Shown piece after piece: positions 45,928 through 51,818 of a stretch of DNA of 64,000 nucleotides. The notes beneath the pieces are model-generated. The model was given only the letters and a program-made list of their open reading frames with translations. It ran no database searches and was not told where the DNA came from. Positions within the stretch are counted from its first letter, which is position 1. Each line of letters opens with the position of its first letter. The stretch comes from a virus, in the IMG/VR virus record IMGVR_UViG_3300042406_000429, positions 48,277 through 112,276 of that record, one strand, 5' to 3'. The translations under genes were made by a program, and so were the position numbers.

Positions 45928-45952
45928 GGCGGCTACTTTAGCCGCCTTTTTT
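45928..45952 (+). terminator. Rho-independent terminator before the tRNA block
   Basis: GGCGGCT/AGCCGCC stem, five-base loop, then six T. Confidence 0.92.
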
Positions 45953-45954
45953 AT

Positions 45955-46034
45955 GGGAGTGTGTGTCCGGAATTGGTTACGGCAAGGTCTGCAAAACCTA
46001 AAATATGTGGGTTCGAGTCCCATCACTCCCTCCA
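45955..46034 (+). tRNA. tRNA-Cys(GCA)
   Basis: Acceptor GGGAGTG/CACTCCC, anticodon loop CTGCAAA, T-loop TTCGAGT, encoded CCA. Confidence 0.85.
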
Positions 46035-46168
46035 ATTCTTAGATAGGTACAGGCTCGTGCGGGCGAGGATCCGTAAAAAAGCCCAAACCTTGTGTCGCAA
46101 ATAGGTTCTGCTCTGGATTGCAACCATCAGAATGAGTGACATAGTAAACCTGTATCTTTCTAAGAATT
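46034..46168 (+). ncRNA. Structured RNA 1 in the tRNA block, closed by a ~20-bp helix
   Basis: AATTCTTAGATAGGTACAGG (46034-46053) pairs with 46149-46168, whose reverse complement differs at only two positions. Inside lie CTCG/CGAG and AACCT/AGGTT hairpins. It is not a tRNA and has no open frame of note. T4 carries two stable RNAs of unknown function (C and D) in its tRNA cluster, a possible parallel. It starts at the last base of tRNA-Cys and ends two bases before tRNA-Ile. Confidence 0.65.
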
Positions 46169-46170
46169 GA

Positions 46171-46246
46171 TGTCCCTTAGCTCAGTTGGTAGAGCACAGT
46201 CCTGATAAGACTGGGGTCGCTGGGTCGGAGCCAGCAGGGACAACCA
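46171..46246 (+). tRNA. tRNA-Ile(GAT)
   Basis: Acceptor TGTCCCT/AGGGACA, loop CTGATAA, CCA encoded. The T-loop reads GTCGGAG, which departs from the usual TTCGAAT. Confidence 0.8.
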
Positions 46247-46247
46247 T

Positions 46248-46323
46248 GCTGTAGTAGCTCAGTTGGTAGAGCAACTGATTAGTAATCAGTAGGTCGGGAG
46301 TTCGAATCTCTCCTACAGCACCA
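46248..46323 (+). tRNA. tRNA-Thr(AGT)
   Basis: Acceptor GCTGTAG/CTACAGC, anticodon stem ACTGA/TCAGT, loop TTAGTAA, T-loop TTCGAAT, CCA. An A34 Thr anticodon is rare in bacteria. Confidence 0.85.
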
Positions 46324-46329
46324 GTTTAT

Positions 46330-46405
46330 GGACCGATAGCTCAGTTGGTAGAGCAGGGGACTCTTAATCCCTTTGTCGTGGGTTCGATCCCCTCTCGGTC
46401 TACCA
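46330..46405 (+). tRNA. tRNA-Lys(CTT)
   Basis: Acceptor GGACCGA/TCGGTCT, loop CTCTTAA, T-loop TTCGATC, CCA. Confidence 0.87.
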
Positions 46406-46417
46406 TTCAGAAAGAAG

Positions 46418-46446
46418 TTGACTTTGACTTTCTTTCAGGGTATATT
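46418..46446 (+). promoter_or_regulatory. Early-type promoter within the tRNA block
   Basis: TTGACT, 17 bases, TATATT, just before tRNA-Glu. Confidence 0.75.
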
Positions 46447-46461
46447 AAGTGTGTAAGTTAC

Positions 46462-46539
46462 GGGGCGGTCTTCTAATTGGCCTAGGAAAACAGACTTTCA
46501 ATCTGTGCAATGTGGGTTCGAGTCCCATCCGCCCTACCA
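46462..46539 (+). tRNA. tRNA-Glu(TTC)
   Basis: Acceptor GGGGCGG/CCGCCCT, anticodon stem ACAGA/TCTGT, loop CTTTCAA, CCA. Confidence 0.87.
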
Positions 46540-46546
46540 ATATAAT

Positions 46547-46622
46547 GGATCCTTAGCTCAATAGGTAGAGCAAGAGACTTTTAATCTCAAGGTTCAGGGT
46601 TCGAGTCCCTGAGGATCCTCCA
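46547..46622 (+). tRNA. tRNA-Lys(TTT)
   Basis: Acceptor GGATCCT/AGGATCC, loop CTTTTAA, T-loop TTCGAGT, CCA. Confidence 0.88.
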
Positions 46623-46624
46623 AG

Positions 46625-46762
46625 TTTCGGGTGCATACGTAGCCATATACCTATCGTTCTAAATGATAGGACCGGATATATGGTGCAAGTATATACGGCT
46701 AATTCACGGCGCTGTAACAAATGTGAGAGAAGAGACGAATGTGTGTCCTCGTCTGCCCGAAA
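46625..46762 (+). ncRNA. Structured RNA 2 in the tRNA block
   Basis: Closing stem TTTCGGG (46625-46631) with CCCGAAA (46756-46762). Inside, CCATATA/TATATGG (46643-46649 with 46677-46683) stacks directly on CCTATC/GATAGG (46650-46655 with 46665-46670). A further AGACGA/TCGTCT hairpin lies near the 3' end. No tRNA features and no coding sign. It lies between tRNA-Lys and tRNA-Asp and is similar in length to structured RNA 1. Confidence 0.65.
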
Positions 46763-46770
46763 GCTATAAT

Positions 46771-46847
46771 GGCTCGTAAGTCGAATTGGTTAAGACGCTG
46801 GCCTGTCACGCCAGAGATAACGGGTTCGATCCCCGTACGGGTCGCCA
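46771..46847 (+). tRNA. tRNA-Asp(GTC)
   Basis: Acceptor GGCTCGT/ACGGGTC, anticodon stem CTGGC/GCCAG, loop CTGTCAC, CCA. The opposite strand carries the 3' end of a GIY-YIG gene. Confidence 0.88.
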
Positions 46848-47422
46848 TTCGCCCTTTCCCAACCATACTTTCTGTATGCTGGGACTTGGTTTCTTTTTAC
46901 TGTTTTGGTCTTACCGTCTTTGACGATCAAGATTTCACTGTAAGTAGGTTTGTTTTTGGGTTTCTTGGTTCTGGTCTTAGCAGTTGCAAGACCGCCTTTT
47001 CTTCCTCTCTTAGATCTTTCTTCTTTAGAGAGTTTGTTGAATTTTTGTCTATTTCTGTAGTCTTCTGACTGCCACAGCAGTTTCATAGTTTCTGAAATAG
47101 ATTGTTTTCTTTTTTCTTCTGAATGTGAGTCTTTCTTGCACACTCTCGGAGAAGAAATGGCTTGGTTATAGAACCTAGGATTAGATACTGCTTTCACTCT
47201 CTGAAGAAACTTGGTTTCGTGTTTACGAGCATCTTCGTATGTATCGAACTTTCTTCTAACTTTAAATGAAAAGTTTTCAATACCATCCTCTTGTATGAGG
47301 CGATTGATAAGTTTAGAGGAAGAAAAGTAGTCCACTCCAATATCTTCGATGGACGATTTTCTTACTCCGTAATAAATATTACCAGTAGAAATGTGGGTAA
47401 TAGTGTAAGTATATGCTTTCAT
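46790..47422 (-). CDS. GIY-YIG (Seg-like) endonuclease within the tRNA block
   Basis: 210 residues from ATG 47422 (gaggataca RBS), with TATAAATA upstream. The nuclease domain has YTITHISTGNIYYGVRKSS, then Arg/Glu-containing KFDTYEDARKHETKFLQRV. Later EEKRKQSISETMKLLWQ and SKRGRKGGLATAKTR are DNA-binding motifs. The last ~18 residues are encoded antisense to tRNA-Asp. It parallels T4 SegB, a homing endonuclease in the T4 tRNA region. A longer frame upstream of 47422 runs antisense through a tRNA and is not used. Confidence 0.82.
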   Translation of the reverse strand: MKAYTYTITHISTGNIYYGVRKSSIEDIGVDYFSSSKLINRLIQEDGIENFSFKVRRKFDTYEDARKHETKFLQRVKAVSNPRFYNQAISSPRVCKKDSHSEEKRKQSISETMKLLWQSEDYRNRQKFNKLSKEERSKRGRKGGLATAKTRTKKPKNKPTYSEILIVKDGKTKTVKRNQVPAYRKYGWERANGDPYGDRTRYLWRDRPAS

Positions 47423-47448
47423 TGTATCCTCAATCATCTGCTGCTTAG

Positions 47449-47456
47449 TATTTATA
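47449..47456 (-). promoter_or_regulatory. Late promoter of the tRNA-block GIY-YIG gene
   Basis: TATAAATA on the minus strand, 26 bases before its start codon. Confidence 0.7.
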
Positions 47457-47470
47457 AGTTTACAAAGTTT

Positions 47471-47562
47471 GGGCGTGACGCTGGGTAGCGGGGAGGCTCT
47501 TATAAAGCCTTTAGCATCAGATGGGTGTTCTTCAGTGGGTTCGAGTCCCACCATGCCTACCA
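47471..47562 (+). tRNA. Class II tRNA with TAT anticodon, isotype unclear
   Basis: Acceptor GGGCGTG/CATGCCT (two G-T pairs), D-arm CGCTGGGTAGCG with only a four-base loop, anticodon stem AGGCT/AGCCT and loop CTTATAA. A ~24-base variable arm contains GCATC/GGTGT pairing, then T-arm GTGGG/CCCAC and CCA. The long variable arm is of the Leu/Ser/Tyr type while TAT would read the Ile codon ATA. Charging cannot be predicted. Confidence 0.6.
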
Positions 47563-47566
47563 AATT

Positions 47567-47657
47567 GGAGAGTTGGCCGAGTTGGTCTAAGGCACTTCAC
47601 TGCTAACGAAGCGTGGGCGAAAGTCTACCGAGAGTTCGAATCTCTCACTCTCCGCCA
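47567..47657 (+). tRNA. tRNA-Ser(GCT)
   Basis: Acceptor GGAGAGT/ACTCTCC, loop CTGCTAA, long variable arm, T-loop TTCGAAT, discriminator G, CCA. Confidence 0.88.
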
Positions 47658-47666
47658 AAAAAGTTG

Positions 47667-47695
47667 TTGACTTGTCTGTTAAAATGCGGTAATAT
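47667..47695 (+). promoter_or_regulatory. Early-type promoter within the tRNA block
   Basis: TTGACT, 17 bases, TAATAT, ten bases after tRNA-Ser and before tRNA-Ala. Confidence 0.75.
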
Positions 47696-47715
47696 TACTA
47701 AATAGAATACGTTTC

Positions 47716-47791
47716 GGGCCAGTAGCTCAGTTGGGAGAGCATCTGATTTGCATTCAGAGGGTCGGGGGTTCGATTCCTCTCTGGTCCACCA
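47716..47791 (+). tRNA. tRNA-Ala(TGC)
   Basis: Acceptor GGGCCAG/CTGGTCC, anticodon stem TCTGA/TCAGA, loop TTTGCAT, CCA. Confidence 0.88.
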
Positions 47792-47806
47792 AGTTTAAAT
47801 AAAAAT

Positions 47807-47896
47807 GGAGTGCGTATCTAGTCGGGGATACTAGTCTGGTCTTGAAAACCAGTAGAGCCGAAAGGCCAGGGGTTCGATTCCGCCACCACTCCGCCA
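47807..47896 (+). tRNA. tRNA-Ser(TGA)
   Basis: Acceptor GGAGTG/CACTCC, anticodon stem CTGGT/ACCAG, loop CTTGAAA, long variable arm, discriminator G, CCA. Confidence 0.86.
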
Positions 47897-47898
47897 TT

Positions 47899-47972
47899 AT
47901 CAGTGAAGTGTTACGGTAGCACGGCTGTCTCCAAAACAGCAGGCGAGGGTTCGACTCCTTCCACTGGTGCCA
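47899..47972 (+). tRNA. tRNA-Trp(CCA)
   Basis: Acceptor ATCAGTG/CACTGGT, anticodon stem GCTGT/ACAGC, loop CTCCAAA, discriminator G, CCA. Confidence 0.86.
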
Positions 47973-47976
47973 TTTC

Positions 47977-48051
47977 GCTGATAGGTCGGCAAGATGTCGA
48001 GGCGCTCTCATAAGGCGTTTCAGGTTGGTTTGATTCCAACTATCAGCACCA
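47977..48051 (+). tRNA. tRNA with CAT anticodon (Met, fMet or Ile2)
   Basis: Acceptor GCTGATA/TATCAGC, loop CTCATAA, T-stem GTTGG/CCAAC, CCA. The perfectly paired acceptor argues against initiator tRNA; an ATA-reading Ile2 is possible. Confidence 0.82.
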
Positions 48052-48058
48052 AGAGTTT

Positions 48059-48134
48059 TGCGGGCGGGAGGTATAGTATCTCGCTGGTCTCATAAACCAG
48101 TAGAAGTTGGTGCAATTCCAACGCTTCGCATCCA
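48059..48134 (+). tRNA. tRNA with CAT anticodon, second copy
   Basis: Anticodon stem CTGGT/ACCAG, loop CTCATAA, T-stem GTTGG/CCAAC, CCA. The acceptor TGCGGGC/CTTCGCA has one mismatch and two G-T pairs. Confidence 0.78.
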
Positions 48135-48141
48135 ATATATT

Positions 48142-48219
48142 CGGGGTGTAGCGCAGTCTGGTTAGCGTGGCTGGTTTGGAACCAGTAGGTCGCAGGTTCG
48201 AATCCTGCTACCCCGACCA
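48142..48219 (+). tRNA. tRNA-Pro(TGG)
   Basis: Acceptor CGGGGTG/TACCCCG, anticodon loop TTTGGAA, T-loop TTCGAAT, CCA. C1 is usual for Pro. Confidence 0.88.
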
Positions 48220-48232
48220 ATTAGGACAGAGT

Positions 48233-48307
48233 ATGTTAAAGTTACTCGTTGTGTTATGGATATCAATAGGAATCTTAGCATTCCTTTTGAATTTAGGTGA
48301 TAGATAA
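48233..48307 (+). CDS. Possible 24-residue membrane peptide
   Basis: MLKLLVVLWISIGILAFLLN followed by LGDR, a single hydrophobic helix, between tRNA-Pro and tRNA-Val. A weak RBS (aggacaga) precedes it. It could be a small inner-membrane peptide; chance is not excluded at this length. Confidence 0.4.
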   Translation: MLKLLVVLWISIGILAFLLNLGDR

Positions 48308-48310
48308 TAT

Positions 48311-48385
48311 GCGGGATTAGCTCAGTGGTAGAGCAACGCTTTTACACGGCGAAGGTCGGCAGTTCAACCCTGTCATCCCGTACCA
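48311..48385 (+). tRNA. tRNA-Val(TAC)
   Basis: Acceptor GCGGGAT/ATCCCGT, loop TTTACAC, CCA. T-loop TTCAACC. Confidence 0.82.
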
Positions 48386-48389
48386 ATAT

Positions 48390-48466
48390 GCCTCTGTAGT
48401 CCAACTGGAAGAGATGCCTGACTTAGAATCAGGAGGTTGTAAGTTCGAATCTTACCAGGGGCACCA
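48390..48466 (+). tRNA. tRNA-Leu(TAG) with a short variable loop
   Basis: Acceptor GCCTCTG/CAGGGGC, anticodon stem CCTGA/TCAGG, loop CTTAGAA, T-stem GTAAG/CTTAC, discriminator A, CCA. The variable loop is about five bases, whereas bacterial Leu tRNAs have long arms. Confidence 0.75.
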
Positions 48467-48470
48467 ATAT

Positions 48471-48566
48471 AGGTCAGTGACGGAATAGGAAGACGTGGCG
48501 AGACGCTGTTGTCCATGAATCCGGATGAAAGACAACGAGTAGGTTCGAATCCTACCTGGCCTACCA
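48471..48566 (+). tRNA. Class II, Leu-like tRNA gene with unresolved anticodon arm
   Basis: Acceptor AGGTCAG/CTGGCCT, D-arm ACGGAATAGGAAGACGT (a Leu-type D-arm), T-stem GTAGG/CCTAC with loop TTCGAAT, CCA. Between them the strongest pairing is GTTGTC/GACAAC around 17 bases. The only five-pair anticodon stem (GGCGA/TTGTC) leaves loop GACGCTG without T33. It may be decayed or unusually folded. Confidence 0.5.
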
Positions 48567-48572
48567 TATAAT

Positions 48573-48648
48573 GCTTCTCTGGTGTAGCTGATGCGCACGC
48601 TCGTCTGAAGAACGAGAGGATCTAGTTTAATTCTAGGGGGAAGCACCA
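48573..48648 (+). tRNA. tRNA-Phe(GAA)
   Basis: Acceptor GCTTCTC/GGGAAGC, anticodon stem CTCGT/ACGAG, loop CTGAAGA, CCA. Confidence 0.86.
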
Positions 48649-48815
48649 TGAAACATGTAGGTGGTATTATAGGATCCACAAAACGAGTTGATTTTTATTG
48701 CGAAATACCAGTAAGAATAAAAAACAACAATCCTATTAACTGGAAACCTGGCATTTATCTTGTTAAAAGAACATGCTATCCAGTTTTGATTATTGTTCAA
48801 GAAAAGCCCTTGTAG
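48648..48815 (+). CDS. Small unknown protein nested between tRNA genes
   Basis: 55 residues (MKHVGGIIGSTKRVDFYCEI...). ATG uses the last A of the tRNA-Phe CCA, and its apparent RBS aggggga is the tRNA acceptor strand itself. The stop lies inside tRNA-Leu. The sequence looks protein-like (WKPGIYLVKRTCYPVLIIVQ) but no relative is recognised. tRNA processing would destroy the message, so expression is uncertain. Confidence 0.45.
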   Translation: MKHVGGIIGSTKRVDFYCEIPVRIKNNNPINWKPGIYLVKRTCYPVLIIVQEKPL

Positions 48816-48882
48816 CCCAATCGGCAGAGGCAGTTGACTCAAAATCAACAAAGTGTCAGTTCGAATCTGACCAAGGGCACCA
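48806..48882 (+). tRNA. tRNA-Leu(CAA) with a short variable loop
   Basis: Acceptor GCCCTTG/CAAGGGC, anticodon stem GTTGA/TCAAC, loop CTCAAAA, variable aaagt, T-stem GTCAG/CTGAC, discriminator A, CCA. Again class I in shape. Confidence 0.78.
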
Positions 48883-48883
48883 T

Positions 48884-48960
48884 GTCTCAGTAGCTCAACT
48901 GAATAGAGCATCGGTCTACGGAACCGAAGGTTGAGGGTTTGAATCCTTCCTGGGACTCCA
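48884..48960 (+). tRNA. tRNA-Arg(ACG)
   Basis: Acceptor GTCTCAG/CTGGGAC, anticodon stem TCGGT/ACCGA, loop CTACGGA, CCA. Confidence 0.87.
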
Positions 48961-48965
48961 AACAT

Positions 48966-49057
48966 GCGTAGGCGGCAACGACGGTGGTGTTGCGACGGAC
49001 TGTAAATCCGTTCCCTTTGCGGTAACATTGGTGGTTCGAATCCATCCCTACGCACCA
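48966..49057 (+). tRNA. tRNA-Tyr(GTA)
   Basis: Acceptor GCGTAGG/CCTACGC, anticodon stem ACGGA/TCCGT, loop CTGTAAA, long variable arm, CCA. Confidence 0.88.
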
Positions 49058-49064
49058 AAATTGT

Positions 49065-49138
49065 TCGGGGTTAGTTTAATGGTAGAACCGCAGACTTTGA
49101 ATCTGCATGTCGGGGTTCGAGTCCCTGACCCCGATCCA
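49065..49138 (+). tRNA. tRNA-Gln(TTG)
   Basis: Acceptor TCGGGGT/ACCCCGA, anticodon stem GCAGA/TCTGC, loop CTTTGAA, CCA. Confidence 0.88.
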
Positions 49139-49141
49139 TAT

Positions 49142-49215
49142 GCTGGCATAGTGTAAAGGTAGCACACGAGATTGTGGATCTTGTAGACTAGGATCGATAC
49201 CTGGTGCCAGTACCA
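49142..49215 (+). tRNA. tRNA-His(GTG)
   Basis: Acceptor GCTGGCA/TGCCAGT, loop TTGTGGA, T-loop TCGATAC, CCA. Confidence 0.83.
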
Positions 49216-49231
49216 AAAGAAAGAATATATT

Positions 49232-49969
49232 ATGTTTTCATTCTTCAAAAGAAGTCCAGAGATAACAATAGATTGTTTCACAGCGCATCGTATGATTTTT
49301 GAGGTAACTCCTATTGTTCATGCTTATAAAGCGACACCAGAATGGTGGGACAATCTTAGGAAGCCAGAGGGAAATCCCTATAGGATTGTAAACAACAGAG
49401 CATTTAATAATGCAAATATGAAGACATGTTCTGGTTTCCTTGAACTTTATAAACGAGGAATTGTTCTAGAAAACTGGTCTGATAGAATTATTAAAATTGC
49501 TAACAACAGAATGGATACTTGGGCTTCGTTTGACACTGGTTGTGATATTCATGATAAGCAATTATATGGTGAAGGGTTTAAAAATTATTTTCATTTGAAA
49601 TTAACTAGCCCATGGTTTTTTAAAGAAAAGACAGGTGTTAAGTTTGTTTTTCTTGGCGCTGAATGGAATTTAGAAGATTTCTATTTTAGAGTTCTTCCTG
49701 GAGTCGTTGATTATAAGTTAAACTCTTCGACTCACATAAATATGATGATTCCGAATTACACATCAGAATTTATCATTCCGATTGGTCTTCCTTTGGCTAT
49801 TATGGTGCCTTTGTCAGAAAAGAAGGTAAAGATTAGACAACATTTGGTTTCGGAATACGAGTGGAAGAAAATGTCTTTCCATTCTCAAACAAGTTTTTAT
49901 GGGTGGAGAAAATTCGTCCAGCTTGATAAGAGAAATCAAAAAAGAGAATCGAAATGTCCCTTCAGTTAA
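49232..49969 (+). CDS. Conserved phage protein of unknown function in the tRNA block
   Basis: 245 residues. ITIDCFTAHRMIFEVTPIVHAYKATPEWWDNL near the start and IPNYTSEFIIPIGLPLAIMVPLSEKKVKIRQH near the end look conserved-phage in type (Trp/Pro-rich, mixed alpha/beta). No catalytic motif can be named. It follows tRNA-His by 16 bases, with gaaagaa as a weak RBS. It is the largest plus-strand gene within the tRNA block. Confidence 0.65.
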   Translation: MFSFFKRSPEITIDCFTAHRMIFEVTPIVHAYKATPEWWDNLRKPEGNPYRIVNNRAFNNANMKTCSGFLELYKRGIVLENWSDRIIKIANNRMDTWASFDTGCDIHDKQLYGEGFKNYFHLKLTSPWFFKEKTGVKFVFLGAEWNLEDFYFRVLPGVVDYKLNSSTHINMMIPNYTSEFIIPIGLPLAIMVPLSEKKVKIRQHLVSEYEWKKMSFHSQTSFYGWRKFVQLDKRNQKRESKCPFS

Positions 49970-49992
49970 TTCTCTCTCAGTCAAAAAAGAAT

Positions 49993-50020
49993 TTGACTTT
50001 CTGACTAAATAAGGTATACT
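49993..50020 (+). promoter_or_regulatory. Early-type promoter before tRNA-Asn
   Basis: TTGACT, 16 bases, TATACT. Confidence 0.72.
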
Positions 50021-50037
50021 AAGAATATAAGAATTAT

Positions 50038-50113
50038 TCCCGTGTAACTCAGTTGGTAGAGTAGGTCGCTGTTAACGACTTTGTCGGAGGTTCGAGCCCT
50101 TCCTCGGGAGCCA
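50038..50113 (+). tRNA. tRNA-Asn(GTT)
   Basis: Acceptor TCCCGTG/CTCGGGA (one mismatch), anticodon stem GGTCG/CGACT, loop CTGTTAA, discriminator G, CCA. Confidence 0.85.
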
Positions 50114-50178
50114 TTATAGGTTGGTCGCTAAATAGACTCGTGCGGACCCACGGTCAGTTCGCTTTATGGAGAAAAGCT

Positions 50179-50463
50179 ATGAAGAAGATTGTTGCTGCTT
50201 TAGTTATCCTCGGTAGCGTTATTACGACTCCGGCTAATGCTTGGTATCGTGGTGGATACTACGGTGGATATGGTTACGGTGGTTATGGCGCAGCTTATGG
50301 TGCCATGGCTGGTGCTGCTATTCTCGGAGGAGTAATCGGCGGCGCAATTGCTTCGCAGGGTTATGGATATAATCCTTATCCATATTACTATGGTCCTCGT
50401 TATCCATACGCTAATTCGCCATATTACTATTATCCTGGGAATGGTTATTACTACGGGTGGTAA
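50179..50463 (+). CDS. Exported Gly/Tyr-rich protein with glycine zipper
   Basis: 94 residues from ATG 50179 (ggagaaaagct RBS). A signal peptide (KKIVAALVILGSVITTPANA) is followed by Gly/Tyr repeats, a glycine-zipper segment (AMAGAAILGGVIGGAIASQ) and a Pro/Tyr-rich end. It is probably sent to the periplasm or outer membrane, where glycine zippers insert or oligomerise. It could alter the envelope or block superinfection; no direct evidence. Confidence 0.7.
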   Translation: MKKIVAALVILGSVITTPANAWYRGGYYGGYGYGGYGAAYGAMAGAAILGGVIGGAIASQGYGYNPYPYYYGPRYPYANSPYYYYPGNGYYYGW

Positions 50464-50465
50464 CA

Positions 50466-50879
50466 ATGAGAAAGTTTCTAGTTGCTCTAGGGATTGTATT
50501 GGCTGTTCCTGCTTATGCGCAGGATAATATTAGTGTATGTAATAACTGTAAGATTACATACCAGCAGCCAGTAAAGAAAGTTGTAAAGACTGTTCAGGTT
50601 CCTGTTGCAGTTGAGTATGTTCCTGCTGGTCCTGGTCCTATTAGCTCTACAGTTATGGTTCCAGTAGTAGTTCCTGTTCAACCTGCACCGTTGGTTCCTG
50701 TTTATAATTCAGTACCAACACCAGAAGCTTCTAACATCTATTCGCCTCCGGGATATCCAACTAATGTTCCTGTGGCAACTTCTGGAAACTGTGCAATGTA
50801 TGTTGATCCTTATGATTTGTTTGGCCAGCTATTCGGTGGAGCAGATCTGGTTCAGAGTTGTATGGTTCCTGCTTACTAA
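50466..50879 (+). CDS. Exported Val/Pro-rich protein
   Basis: 137 residues from ATG 50466, three bases after the previous stop. Signal peptide MRKFLVALGIVLAVPAYAQ, then a CNNC pair, Val/Pro-rich repeats (VPVVVPVQPAPLVPVY) and two Cys in the C-terminal third. A periplasmic, perhaps disulphide-bonded, extended protein is likely. It forms a pair with the preceding exported protein and is followed by tRNA-Thr. Confidence 0.68.
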   Translation: MRKFLVALGIVLAVPAYAQDNISVCNNCKITYQQPVKKVVKTVQVPVAVEYVPAGPGPISSTVMVPVVVPVQPAPLVPVYNSVPTPEASNIYSPPGYPTNVPVATSGNCAMYVDPYDLFGQLFGGADLVQSCMVPAY

Positions 50880-50880
50880 T

Positions 50881-50956
50881 GCTGGCATAGCTCAGACGGT
50901 AGAGCAACTCACTTGTAATGAGAAGGTCGTGGGTTCGACTCCTGCTGCCAGCACCA
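50881..50956 (+). tRNA. tRNA-Thr(TGT)
   Basis: Acceptor GCTGGCA/TGCCAGC, loop CTTGTAA, T-loop TTCGACT, CCA. Confidence 0.85.
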
Positions 50957-50957
50957 T

Positions 50958-51032
50958 TCGGGATTAGTTTAATTGGTAAAACTTCGGATTCTGACTCCGA
51001 CATTCGTGGTTCGAGTCCATGATCCCGAGCCA
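50958..51032 (+). tRNA. tRNA-Gln(CTG)
   Basis: Acceptor TCGGGAT/ATCCCGA, anticodon stem TCGGA/TCCGA, loop TTCTGAC, discriminator G, CCA. Confidence 0.87.
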
Positions 51033-51045
51033 AAAAGGATGTATT

Positions 51046-51153
51046 ATGACTGAAGAACAACATAAAATTTCGGCAATTATCAAGATCGTTTGTTTCTTTT
51101 TATTGATGATTGTCGCTGGTTTTGTATTACAAGACCTATATACATTTGGTTAA
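51046..51153 (+). CDS. 35-residue membrane peptide
   Basis: A short charged head (MTEEQHK) and one hydrophobic helix (IVCFFLLMIVAGFVLQDLY). An aaaaagga RBS sits eight bases before ATG. It lies between tRNA-Gln and tRNA-Gly. The RBS and composition support a real small membrane protein. Confidence 0.5.
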   Translation: MTEEQHKISAIIKIVCFFLLMIVAGFVLQDLYTFG

Positions 51154-51154
51154 T

Positions 51155-51229
51155 GCGGGTGTAACTCAGGGGTAGAGTCACAGTCTTCCAAACTGTTGGT
51201 CGCCAGTTCGAATCTGGTCGCCCGCTCCA
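51155..51229 (+). tRNA. tRNA-Gly(TCC)
   Basis: Acceptor GCGGGTG/CGCCCGC, anticodon stem ACAGT/ACTGT, loop CTTCCAA, CCA. Confidence 0.87.
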
Positions 51230-51236
51230 AAATCCG

Positions 51237-51334
51237 ACGGAAAGAGATGGATACTTTCCGTTCACTGTATAAGGTAGGCATATCGCTTTATACAGACATA
51301 GGTAGAGGCAACCTGGAACGTCCTCTGATATGCC
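51237..51334 (+). ncRNA. Pseudoknotted structured RNA before the deaminase gene
   Basis: Four helices, three of them perfect 8-bp: P1 ACGGAAAG/CTTTCCGT (51237-51244 with 51254-51261); P2 CTGTATAA/TTATACAG (51265-51272 with 51288-51295); P3 GGCATATC/GATATGCC (51277-51284 with 51327-51334); P4 AGAGG/CCTCT (51304-51308 with 51322-51326). P3's first strand lies in the P2 loop, so P2 and P3 form an H-type pseudoknot. It may be a stable RNA like those in the tRNA block, or a regulatory leader of the deaminase gene. Confidence 0.7.
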
Positions 51335-51818
51335 GTCTTATCCACTAAACCTGTCTCAACGAAATAGTGACTGGGAGAAGGTAGTAACTCCCGAGGATTA
51401 TATTATGACTCGCGACAAGAAATATATGGACTTTGTCCGTAGACTCGCCACTTCCAACAACATGAAAATGAAACTCGCTGCTTGTCTCGTTATCCGTAAC
51501 GAGATTATTTCAGTTGGACTAAACTCCGACAAATCTCACCCTCTGCAGAAAAGATTCGCAAAGAATAACGATGCGATCTTTAAACATGCAGAGGTAGATT
51601 GCATTATCAAAGCATTGAAGATTGTCGACGAAGAAGATCTTAAGAATGCCACTCTATATGTCTATCGTGTAAAGCGCAAGCACAAAGGAGACATGAACTG
51701 GGTAAGTGGTAGGGCGGAACCTTGTCCGGGATGTCAGAAAGCCATCGAACATTTCGGCATCAAGAAAACTGTATTCTCTCTAGATGAAGAGGACTCTTAC
51801 GGAACCTTGTGGTGCTAA
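51330..51818 (+). CDS. dCMP/cytidine deaminase-family protein
   Basis: 162 residues from 51330, or 137 from ATG 51405, which has gagga upstream and begins at the usual deaminase core (MTRDKKYMDFVRRLATSNN). I favour 51405 because 51330 lies in a pseudoknot stem. Zinc-site motifs: FKHAEVDC (His, catalytic Glu) and EPCPGCQKAI (two Cys). dCMP deaminase makes dUMP for thymidylate synthesis; action on another deoxynucleotide or modified base is possible. Confidence 0.8.
   Translation: MPSYPLNLSQRNSDWEKVVTPEDYIMTRDKKYMDFVRRLATSNNMKMKLAACLVIRNEIISVGLNSDKSHPLQKRFAKNNDAIFKHAEVDCIIKALKIVDEEDLKNATLYVYRVKRKHKGDMNWVSGRAEPCPGCQKAIEHFGIKKTVFSLDEEDSYGTLWC

Follow-up and report, generated by a model that had tools for sequence, protein, structure and literature searches.

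The tRNA arrays of phages are commonly treated as lists of tRNAs, with the spacers left blank. The locus described here raises the question of what lies between the last tRNA gene of such an array and the protein-coding gene downstream. We refer to the whole stretch of 64,000 nucleotides that was analyzed as the window; it belongs to a virus record of 112,276 bases from a freshwater phage (IMG/VR record IMGVR_UViG_3300042406_000429). Its tRNA array spans positions 45957 to 51229, with 24 tRNAs called by ARAGORN and several more that ARAGORN missed, and a dCMP/cytidine deaminase-like gene follows (Table 1). An original prediction, made from the letters of the window, had placed a compact pseudoknotted RNA between the two and offered a nucleotide-sensing leader, an autoregulatory site, or a stable RNA as its possible nature.

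Architecture of the RNA

The three 8-bp helices that had been predicted (A, B, and C) are all present where they were placed, each with 8 Watson-Crick pairs, and the connecting loops of 4 and 3 nt are as described if helix B is counted as 8 bp; it becomes 10 pairs (one G-U) once 51273-51274/51286-51287 are included. The small hairpin assigned to the last loop was partly right: its pairing (AGAGG/CCTCT) holds, but the hairpin does not stand alone and contributes one of the two helices of a second H-type pseudoknot (D1/D2), which sits in the long loop of the first (B/C). Because two conserved hairpins (E and F, the latter with the loop core GTAGTAA) follow, the predicted extent of 98 nt (51237-51334) proved too short, and the element measures ~163 nt. 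The whole RNA would fold as hairpin A, pseudoknot B/C enclosing pseudoknot D1/D2, and the 3' hairpins E and F.

Table 1. Features at the 3' end of the tRNA array in window coordinates, with the swap-test fraction of each helix in the last column
Feature	Position	Strand	Sequence	Remarks	Swap test
tRNA-Gly(tcc)	51155-51229	+		Last of array; encoded 3' CCA adjoins the RNA, gap 0; ARAGORN, Rfam	
Double-pseudoknot noncoding RNA, whole element	about 51230-51392	+		~163 nt; covariance model R1, 160.6 bits in the window	
Hairpin A	51236-51262	+	GACGGAAAG / CTTTCCGTT, loop AGATGGATA	51237-51244/51254-51261, 8 Watson-Crick pairs; 9 with a G-U	1e-4
Helix B of pseudoknot 1	51265-51272/51288-51295	+	CTGTATAAGG / CTTTATACAG	8 Watson-Crick pairs	1.5e-4
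Helix C, 5' strand	51277-51284	+	GGCATATC	Inside loop of B; pairs with 51327-51334, 8 Watson-Crick	
Helix C, 3' strand	51327-51334	+	GATATGCC	Closes pseudoknot 1	~1e-4
Helix D1 of pseudoknot 2	51300-51303/51311-51314	+	AGGT / ACCT		0.006
Helix D2, 5' strand	51304-51308	+	AGAGG	Inside loop of D1; pairs with 51322-51326	2.5e-4
Helix D2, 3' strand	51322-51326	+	CCTCT	Partner of 51304-51308	
Hairpin E	51353-51371	+	GTCTC / GTGAC, loop AACGAAATA	Conserved loop; one T-T mismatch in the window	
Hairpin F	51373-51392	+	GGGAG / CTCCC, loop AAGGTAGTAA in the window	Conserved loop	
GAGGA	51393-51397	+	GAGGA	Likely ribosome-binding site of the deaminase gene, from sequence reading; adjoins hairpin F	
Deaminase gene (dCMP/cytidine deaminase-like)	51405-51818	+		Pfam PF00383, PHROG dCMP deaminase; start from homolog alignment	

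An H-type pseudoknot of two 8-bp Watson-Crick helices occurs once on the plus strand of the 64 kb, compared with 0.1 expected per strand from Markov shuffles. The best pseudoknot stacking energy of the 175-nt stretch with the element was matched by 5 of 1500 shuffles, and that of 111 nt by 2 of 1500, whereas the pseudoknot-free folding energy is only mildly unusual (z of -2.2). Because the shuffle odds were low yet the folding z-score was modest, the structure was likely but unsettled from one sequence. Copies of the element in the window record and in five IMG/VR contigs are identical over 175 nt and hold no covariation information.

Divergent members in other phages

More distant relatives were reached through the 3' tail. 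When related phage records were searched with blastn, contig G004 (locus L143) matched window bases 51347-51401 (82%, E value of 3e-11); the sequence upstream of this match, which blastn left unaligned, shows a hairpin, the B/C pseudoknot, and the D element, all with replaced stems. A search pattern taken from the tail loops, AACGAAATAG-N(10-16)-GTAGTAAC, which put no constraint on the stems, then recovered L156, L158, L159/L162/L164, L165, L168, L169, and the more distant L160/L171 from IMG/VR, together with chance matches in coding sequence. Applied to prokaryote genome contigs, the E/F loop pattern gave 14 matches, all judged to be chance, with no flanking similarity. Eight distinct sequences, some of which are close to each other, make up the member set together with a distant variant and a remnant, all on uncultured IMG/VR contigs.

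The homology search with a structure model that had been recommended as a check was run with covariance model R1, in which full members, including divergent ones, score 130 to 174 bits and L160/L171 about 25 bits. In the distant L160, the stem of hairpin E is GTAGC/GCTAC and a B/C pseudoknot was tentatively matched by eye, and a weak R1 match in L029 is a remnant of hairpin E directly behind tRNA-Gly. The loops of E and F are near-invariant among members, an invariance that is partly selected among the pattern matches because these loops were the search pattern; G004 is the exception, as its blastn match predates the pattern.

Other routes to homologs were less productive. Exact patterns from the 5' part returned the same phage and one chance match (L058), and relatives of the deaminase led to sister phages without the RNA. 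The insert at the same place in L040 is unrelated to the RNA, and L028 has there, by eye, a terminator-like hairpin and promoter-like boxes instead. No similar element was recognized in a pseudoknot scan of other loci. Blastn against 50,697 phage records found no relative of the RNA; only the tRNA-like element that follows it in some loci was matched, in one search.

Covariation of the helices

Eight distinct sequences retain every helix with its letters replaced. For example, helix C changes from its window letters (Table 1) to GGTTATC/GATAACC in L159, GAGTTGTC/GACAACTC in L165, and GTGTGCTA/TAGCACAT in L158. Pseudoknot 2 consists of D1 GAGTA/TACTC and D2 TCTGG/CCAGA in L165 and of D1 AGGT/ACCT and D2 GGCGA/TCGTC in L158; the GAGTA/TACTC form of D1 is found in two relatives. 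In an alignment-free swap test, the 5' strand of each of the eight sequences was paired with the 3' strand of a randomly reassigned sequence, using segments hand-cut around the helices. Fractions of reassignments that paired as well as the own strands ranged from 1e-4 (A and C) to 0.006 (D1, the least supported helix), values to be read with the eight sequences being not fully independent, since L168 and L169 are close and the window and L156 share helix B.

A MAFFT alignment made without structure had 80% of its cells paired, compared with 38 to 54% when partners were slid by 1 to 3 columns; 22 of 44 pairs were changed on both sides, and the covariation score was 0.371, compared with 0.202 in shuffles (reached in 0/500). 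In alignments fitted to models, helix B had 96% of its cells paired, with both sides changed in 6 of 10 pairs, and helix C had 91%, with both sides changed in 7 of 8. Stems broken in relatives without compensation had been named as grounds for rejecting the structure; the opposite was found, as stems are replaced across the eight sequences in a compensated manner. Because distantly related phages share the fold despite different letters, this is a real noncoding RNA. The double pseudoknot and hairpins E and F form an RNA family, in which helices A, B, C, D1, and D2 covary and the E/F loops are conserved between separate sequences.

A fixed place behind a tRNA

The RNA had been predicted to lie directly 3' of tRNA-Gly, and this is borne out down to a zero gap after the encoded CCA. 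Genomic context was tabulated for ten other member loci, among which L159, L162, and L164 are one lineage. The RNA follows tRNA-Gly with a gap of 0 in 7 of the 10 and tRNA-Thr, also with a gap of 0, in L160; the gap to the CCA is thus zero in 8 of the 10. In L143 the RNA begins about 10 nt behind tRNA-Trp. In these nine loci the preceding tRNA is on the same strand as the RNA; in L165 a Gly-like tRNA that ARAGORN missed ends directly before it. The 3' side is more varied, with a tRNA-like element, tRNA-Met, another structured RNA, or (L168, by eye) a homing-endonuclease-like open reading frame (ORF); the next called tRNA is tRNA-Met in 6/10. Of the options first proposed, a stable RNA is supported by the compensated helices and this fixed place behind a tRNA CCA.

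On balance, we favor a noncoding RNA gene of the phage tRNA operon that is cotranscribed and coprocessed with the tRNAs, acts in trans, and belongs to a family without an Rfam counterpart. Transcription together with the tRNA array is suggested by the plus strand between tRNA-Gly and the deaminase start, where no promoter-like or terminator-like site was found. The RNA is probably trimmed out of the tRNA transcript, and the zero gap is consistent with a 5' end that would be set by 3' maturation of the adjoining tRNA. The variable pseudoknot body could make the RNA compact and nuclease resistant, and the near-invariant loops of E and F may bind a partner in trans, for which conserved loops are by themselves not decisive. 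Its molecular function we can only infer. More speculatively, the RNA might represent a new functional class, either as a new small ribozyme responsible for phage tRNA maturation or as a protector or mimic of tRNA in the face of host defenses that target tRNAs, delivered together with the tRNAs it serves.

The strongest rival, kept because of the tRNA junction, is a ribozyme acting there, which we consider unlikely. The zero gap to the CCA in the 8 tabulated loci would suit it, and small ribozymes include nested double pseudoknots. Theta ribozymes, which are hepatitis delta virus (HDV)-like, cleave at phage tRNA 3' ends and resemble the phage RNA in adjoining such an end and in their nested pseudoknots (PMC10879173). 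However, the 6 to 16 nt from the CCA to helix A vary in sequence and length, leaving no conserved cleavage site there and no conserved base at the junction, and many of the remaining tRNAs in the array directly adjoin each other without such an element. The topology also differs: the HDV-like/theta order P1-P2-P3-P3'-P1'-(P4)-P2' calls for a P3 hairpin that follows the 5' strand of P2 and precedes the 3' strand of P1, whereas the aligned members have only a few unpaired nucleotides, and no hairpin, between the helix C 5' strand and the helix B 3' strand. The second pseudoknot in loop 3 and the leading hairpin A further set the phage RNA apart from theta ribozymes.

The deaminase gene as a neighbor

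A role as a leader of the deaminase mRNA in cis, whether as a switch that senses a metabolite or protein or as a stabilizer of the 5' end, is improbable. It would fit the window lineage, where the RNA adjoins GAGGA and is separated by 12 nt from the ATG at 51405. It would also fit the resemblance of the phage RNA to the preQ1-II riboswitch, which likewise has a leading hairpin and an H-type pseudoknot whose loop 3 is structured. The two differ in that the phage RNA has a pseudoknot rather than a hairpin in loop 3, two extra 3' hairpins, and no tie to the downstream gene, and the preQ1-II model of Rfam, like every other Rfam riboswitch, gave no match to the window copy at an E value of ≤10, nor did preQ1-II match L156.

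The RNA had been thought to overlap the start of the deaminase gene, with an ATG at 51330 as its first possible start, but homologs align from 51405, which lies past the RNA end at 51392, and 51330 is outside the conserved protein. Conserved linkage between the RNA and the gene was tested for and not found. In the nearest sister phages, whose deaminase is 85 to 87% identical, tRNA-Gly is followed by 15 nt and the deaminase ATG, and the RNA is absent; it can therefore be gained or lost and is nonessential. Four phages (G020, G021, G022, and G029) have both the RNA and a deaminase homolog, 7 to 10 kb apart. Because the tRNA is fixed in the tabulated loci and the deaminase is distant in these four phages, the constant neighbor of the RNA is the tRNA and not the deaminase. 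The deaminase-tied options of a nucleotide-sensing leader or an autoregulatory site are accordingly unsupported. The deaminase is a neighbor that we judge to be outside the RNA system, and it would lie downstream only in the window phage lineage, through local gene arrangement.

Relation to tRNAs and known RNA classes

Equally improbable is that the RNA is a tRNA altered by decay or permutation, or one segment of a larger tRNA-like RNA that is completed by the tRNA-like element found behind it in several loci. Hairpin F (GGGAG ATGGTAGTAA CTCCC in relatives) resembles a tRNA D arm, and an element without a D arm follows the RNA in L143, L156, L159/L162/L164, and L169. However, the window, L158, L165, and L168 have the RNA without that element, the tRNA model does not match over the RNA, and the pseudoknots have no counterpart in tRNA. 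A chance fold in a neutral insertion, which could appeal to the identical window copies and the modest single-sequence folding energy, is refuted by the covariation, in which stems A, B, C, and D2 are replaced with compensation across eight sequences, and deserves practically no credence.

The noncoding RNA that we favor belongs to no class that we could match, in agreement with the original prediction. Searching Rfam 15 around the window copy at an E value of ≤10 returned tRNA only, and a search with L156 returned only tRNA and low-scoring chance matches. No such RNA is named in the literature searched, whose coverage mostly excludes subscription journals, and the family is apparently undescribed.

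The RNA shares its location right after a tRNA within a phage tRNA cluster with T4 species 1 and 2 (rnaC and rnaD), small, stable non-tRNA RNAs that stand in the order tRNA-Arg, rnaD, rnaC. Homology with them is not apparent: R1 matched nowhere in the complete T4 genome, a T arm is present in rnaC, and the conserved E/F loops are absent from rnaC and rnaD. To our knowledge, species 1 and 2 have gone for decades without an assigned function, and a covarying family with near-invariant loops, fixed in this position across diverged phages, offers a concrete, testable object for that question; the covariance model is available for finding more members. GOLLD and ROOL are also phage-encoded structured RNAs near tRNA islands; their function is unknown, many GOLLD members are longer than 800 nt, and both RNAs assemble into nanocages (PMC12286853). 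They differ from the phage RNA in their larger size and nanocage formation, and their Rfam covariance models did not match it.

Other elements in the tRNA arrays

Further structured RNAs occupy other spacers of the same array. A second non-tRNA RNA with a long end-to-end closing stem lies in the tRNA-Cys/tRNA-Ile spacer (window 46036-46169). Divergent copies in L052/L056, L138, and L143 carry compensatory changes (43 pairs, 12 changed on both sides); the RNA has a very conserved core, GGTACAGGCTCGTGCG and GCTCTGGATTGCAA, and no Rfam match. A third structured RNA, in the tRNA-Lys/tRNA-Asp spacer (46623-46770), has an 86% identical copy in phage record G018 and no match among annotated phages. 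Kinship of the double-pseudoknot RNA with either spacer RNA was considered and rejected, as the similarity was not significant.

The tRNA-like element without a D arm (L143 6830-6922, L156 14381-14474, and equivalents) has an acceptor stem, a 7-nt loop CTACGAA (as for anticodon ACG), a T arm, and a CCA, and its stems covary. Similar unannotated copies are present in cultured phages, namely, Rhizobium phage RHph_I1_18, Xanthomonas phages XacN1 and X1, Stenotrophomonas phages CM1 and RAS14, and Microbacterium phage Zooman. On the reverse strand of L158, a structured segment directly behind the RNA has, by eye, a closing stem of ~22 bp and a T-arm-like hairpin (CCGGGTTCGATTCCTGG).

Three tRNA-like genes that ARAGORN missed, at window positions 47807-47896, 47977-48051, and 48064-48134, were read by eye, one as Ser(tga) and the other two as having the anticodon cat; of the three, only 48064-48134 passes the Rfam tRNA cutoff. 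The tRNA-Leu/tRNA-Phe spacer holds a probable unusual tRNA not called by ARAGORN (48469-48566), with a long variable region, acceptor TAGGTCA/TGGCCTA, a T arm, and a CCA. Between tRNA-Gln and tRNA-Gly, a small ORF (51046-51153) encodes a 35-residue membrane-like peptide, MTEEQHKISAIIKIVCFFLLMIVAGFVLQDLYTFG, and similar ORFs stand at the same place in many relatives. A short hairpin with a GGTTAG-type loop (e.g., TGTGGGCCAGAGGTTAGCCCACA) appears by eye to recur in tRNA arrays (L039 318, L040 3828, L050 near 1600, L029 20-45, and the window near 50135), unconfirmed by a regular-expression search, which returned nothing. Whole blocks are replaced in the tRNA arrays of otherwise near-identical contigs, at window positions 45930-46242 (L052, L056) and 47793-47967 (L002, L054), as if tRNA cassettes recombined between strains.
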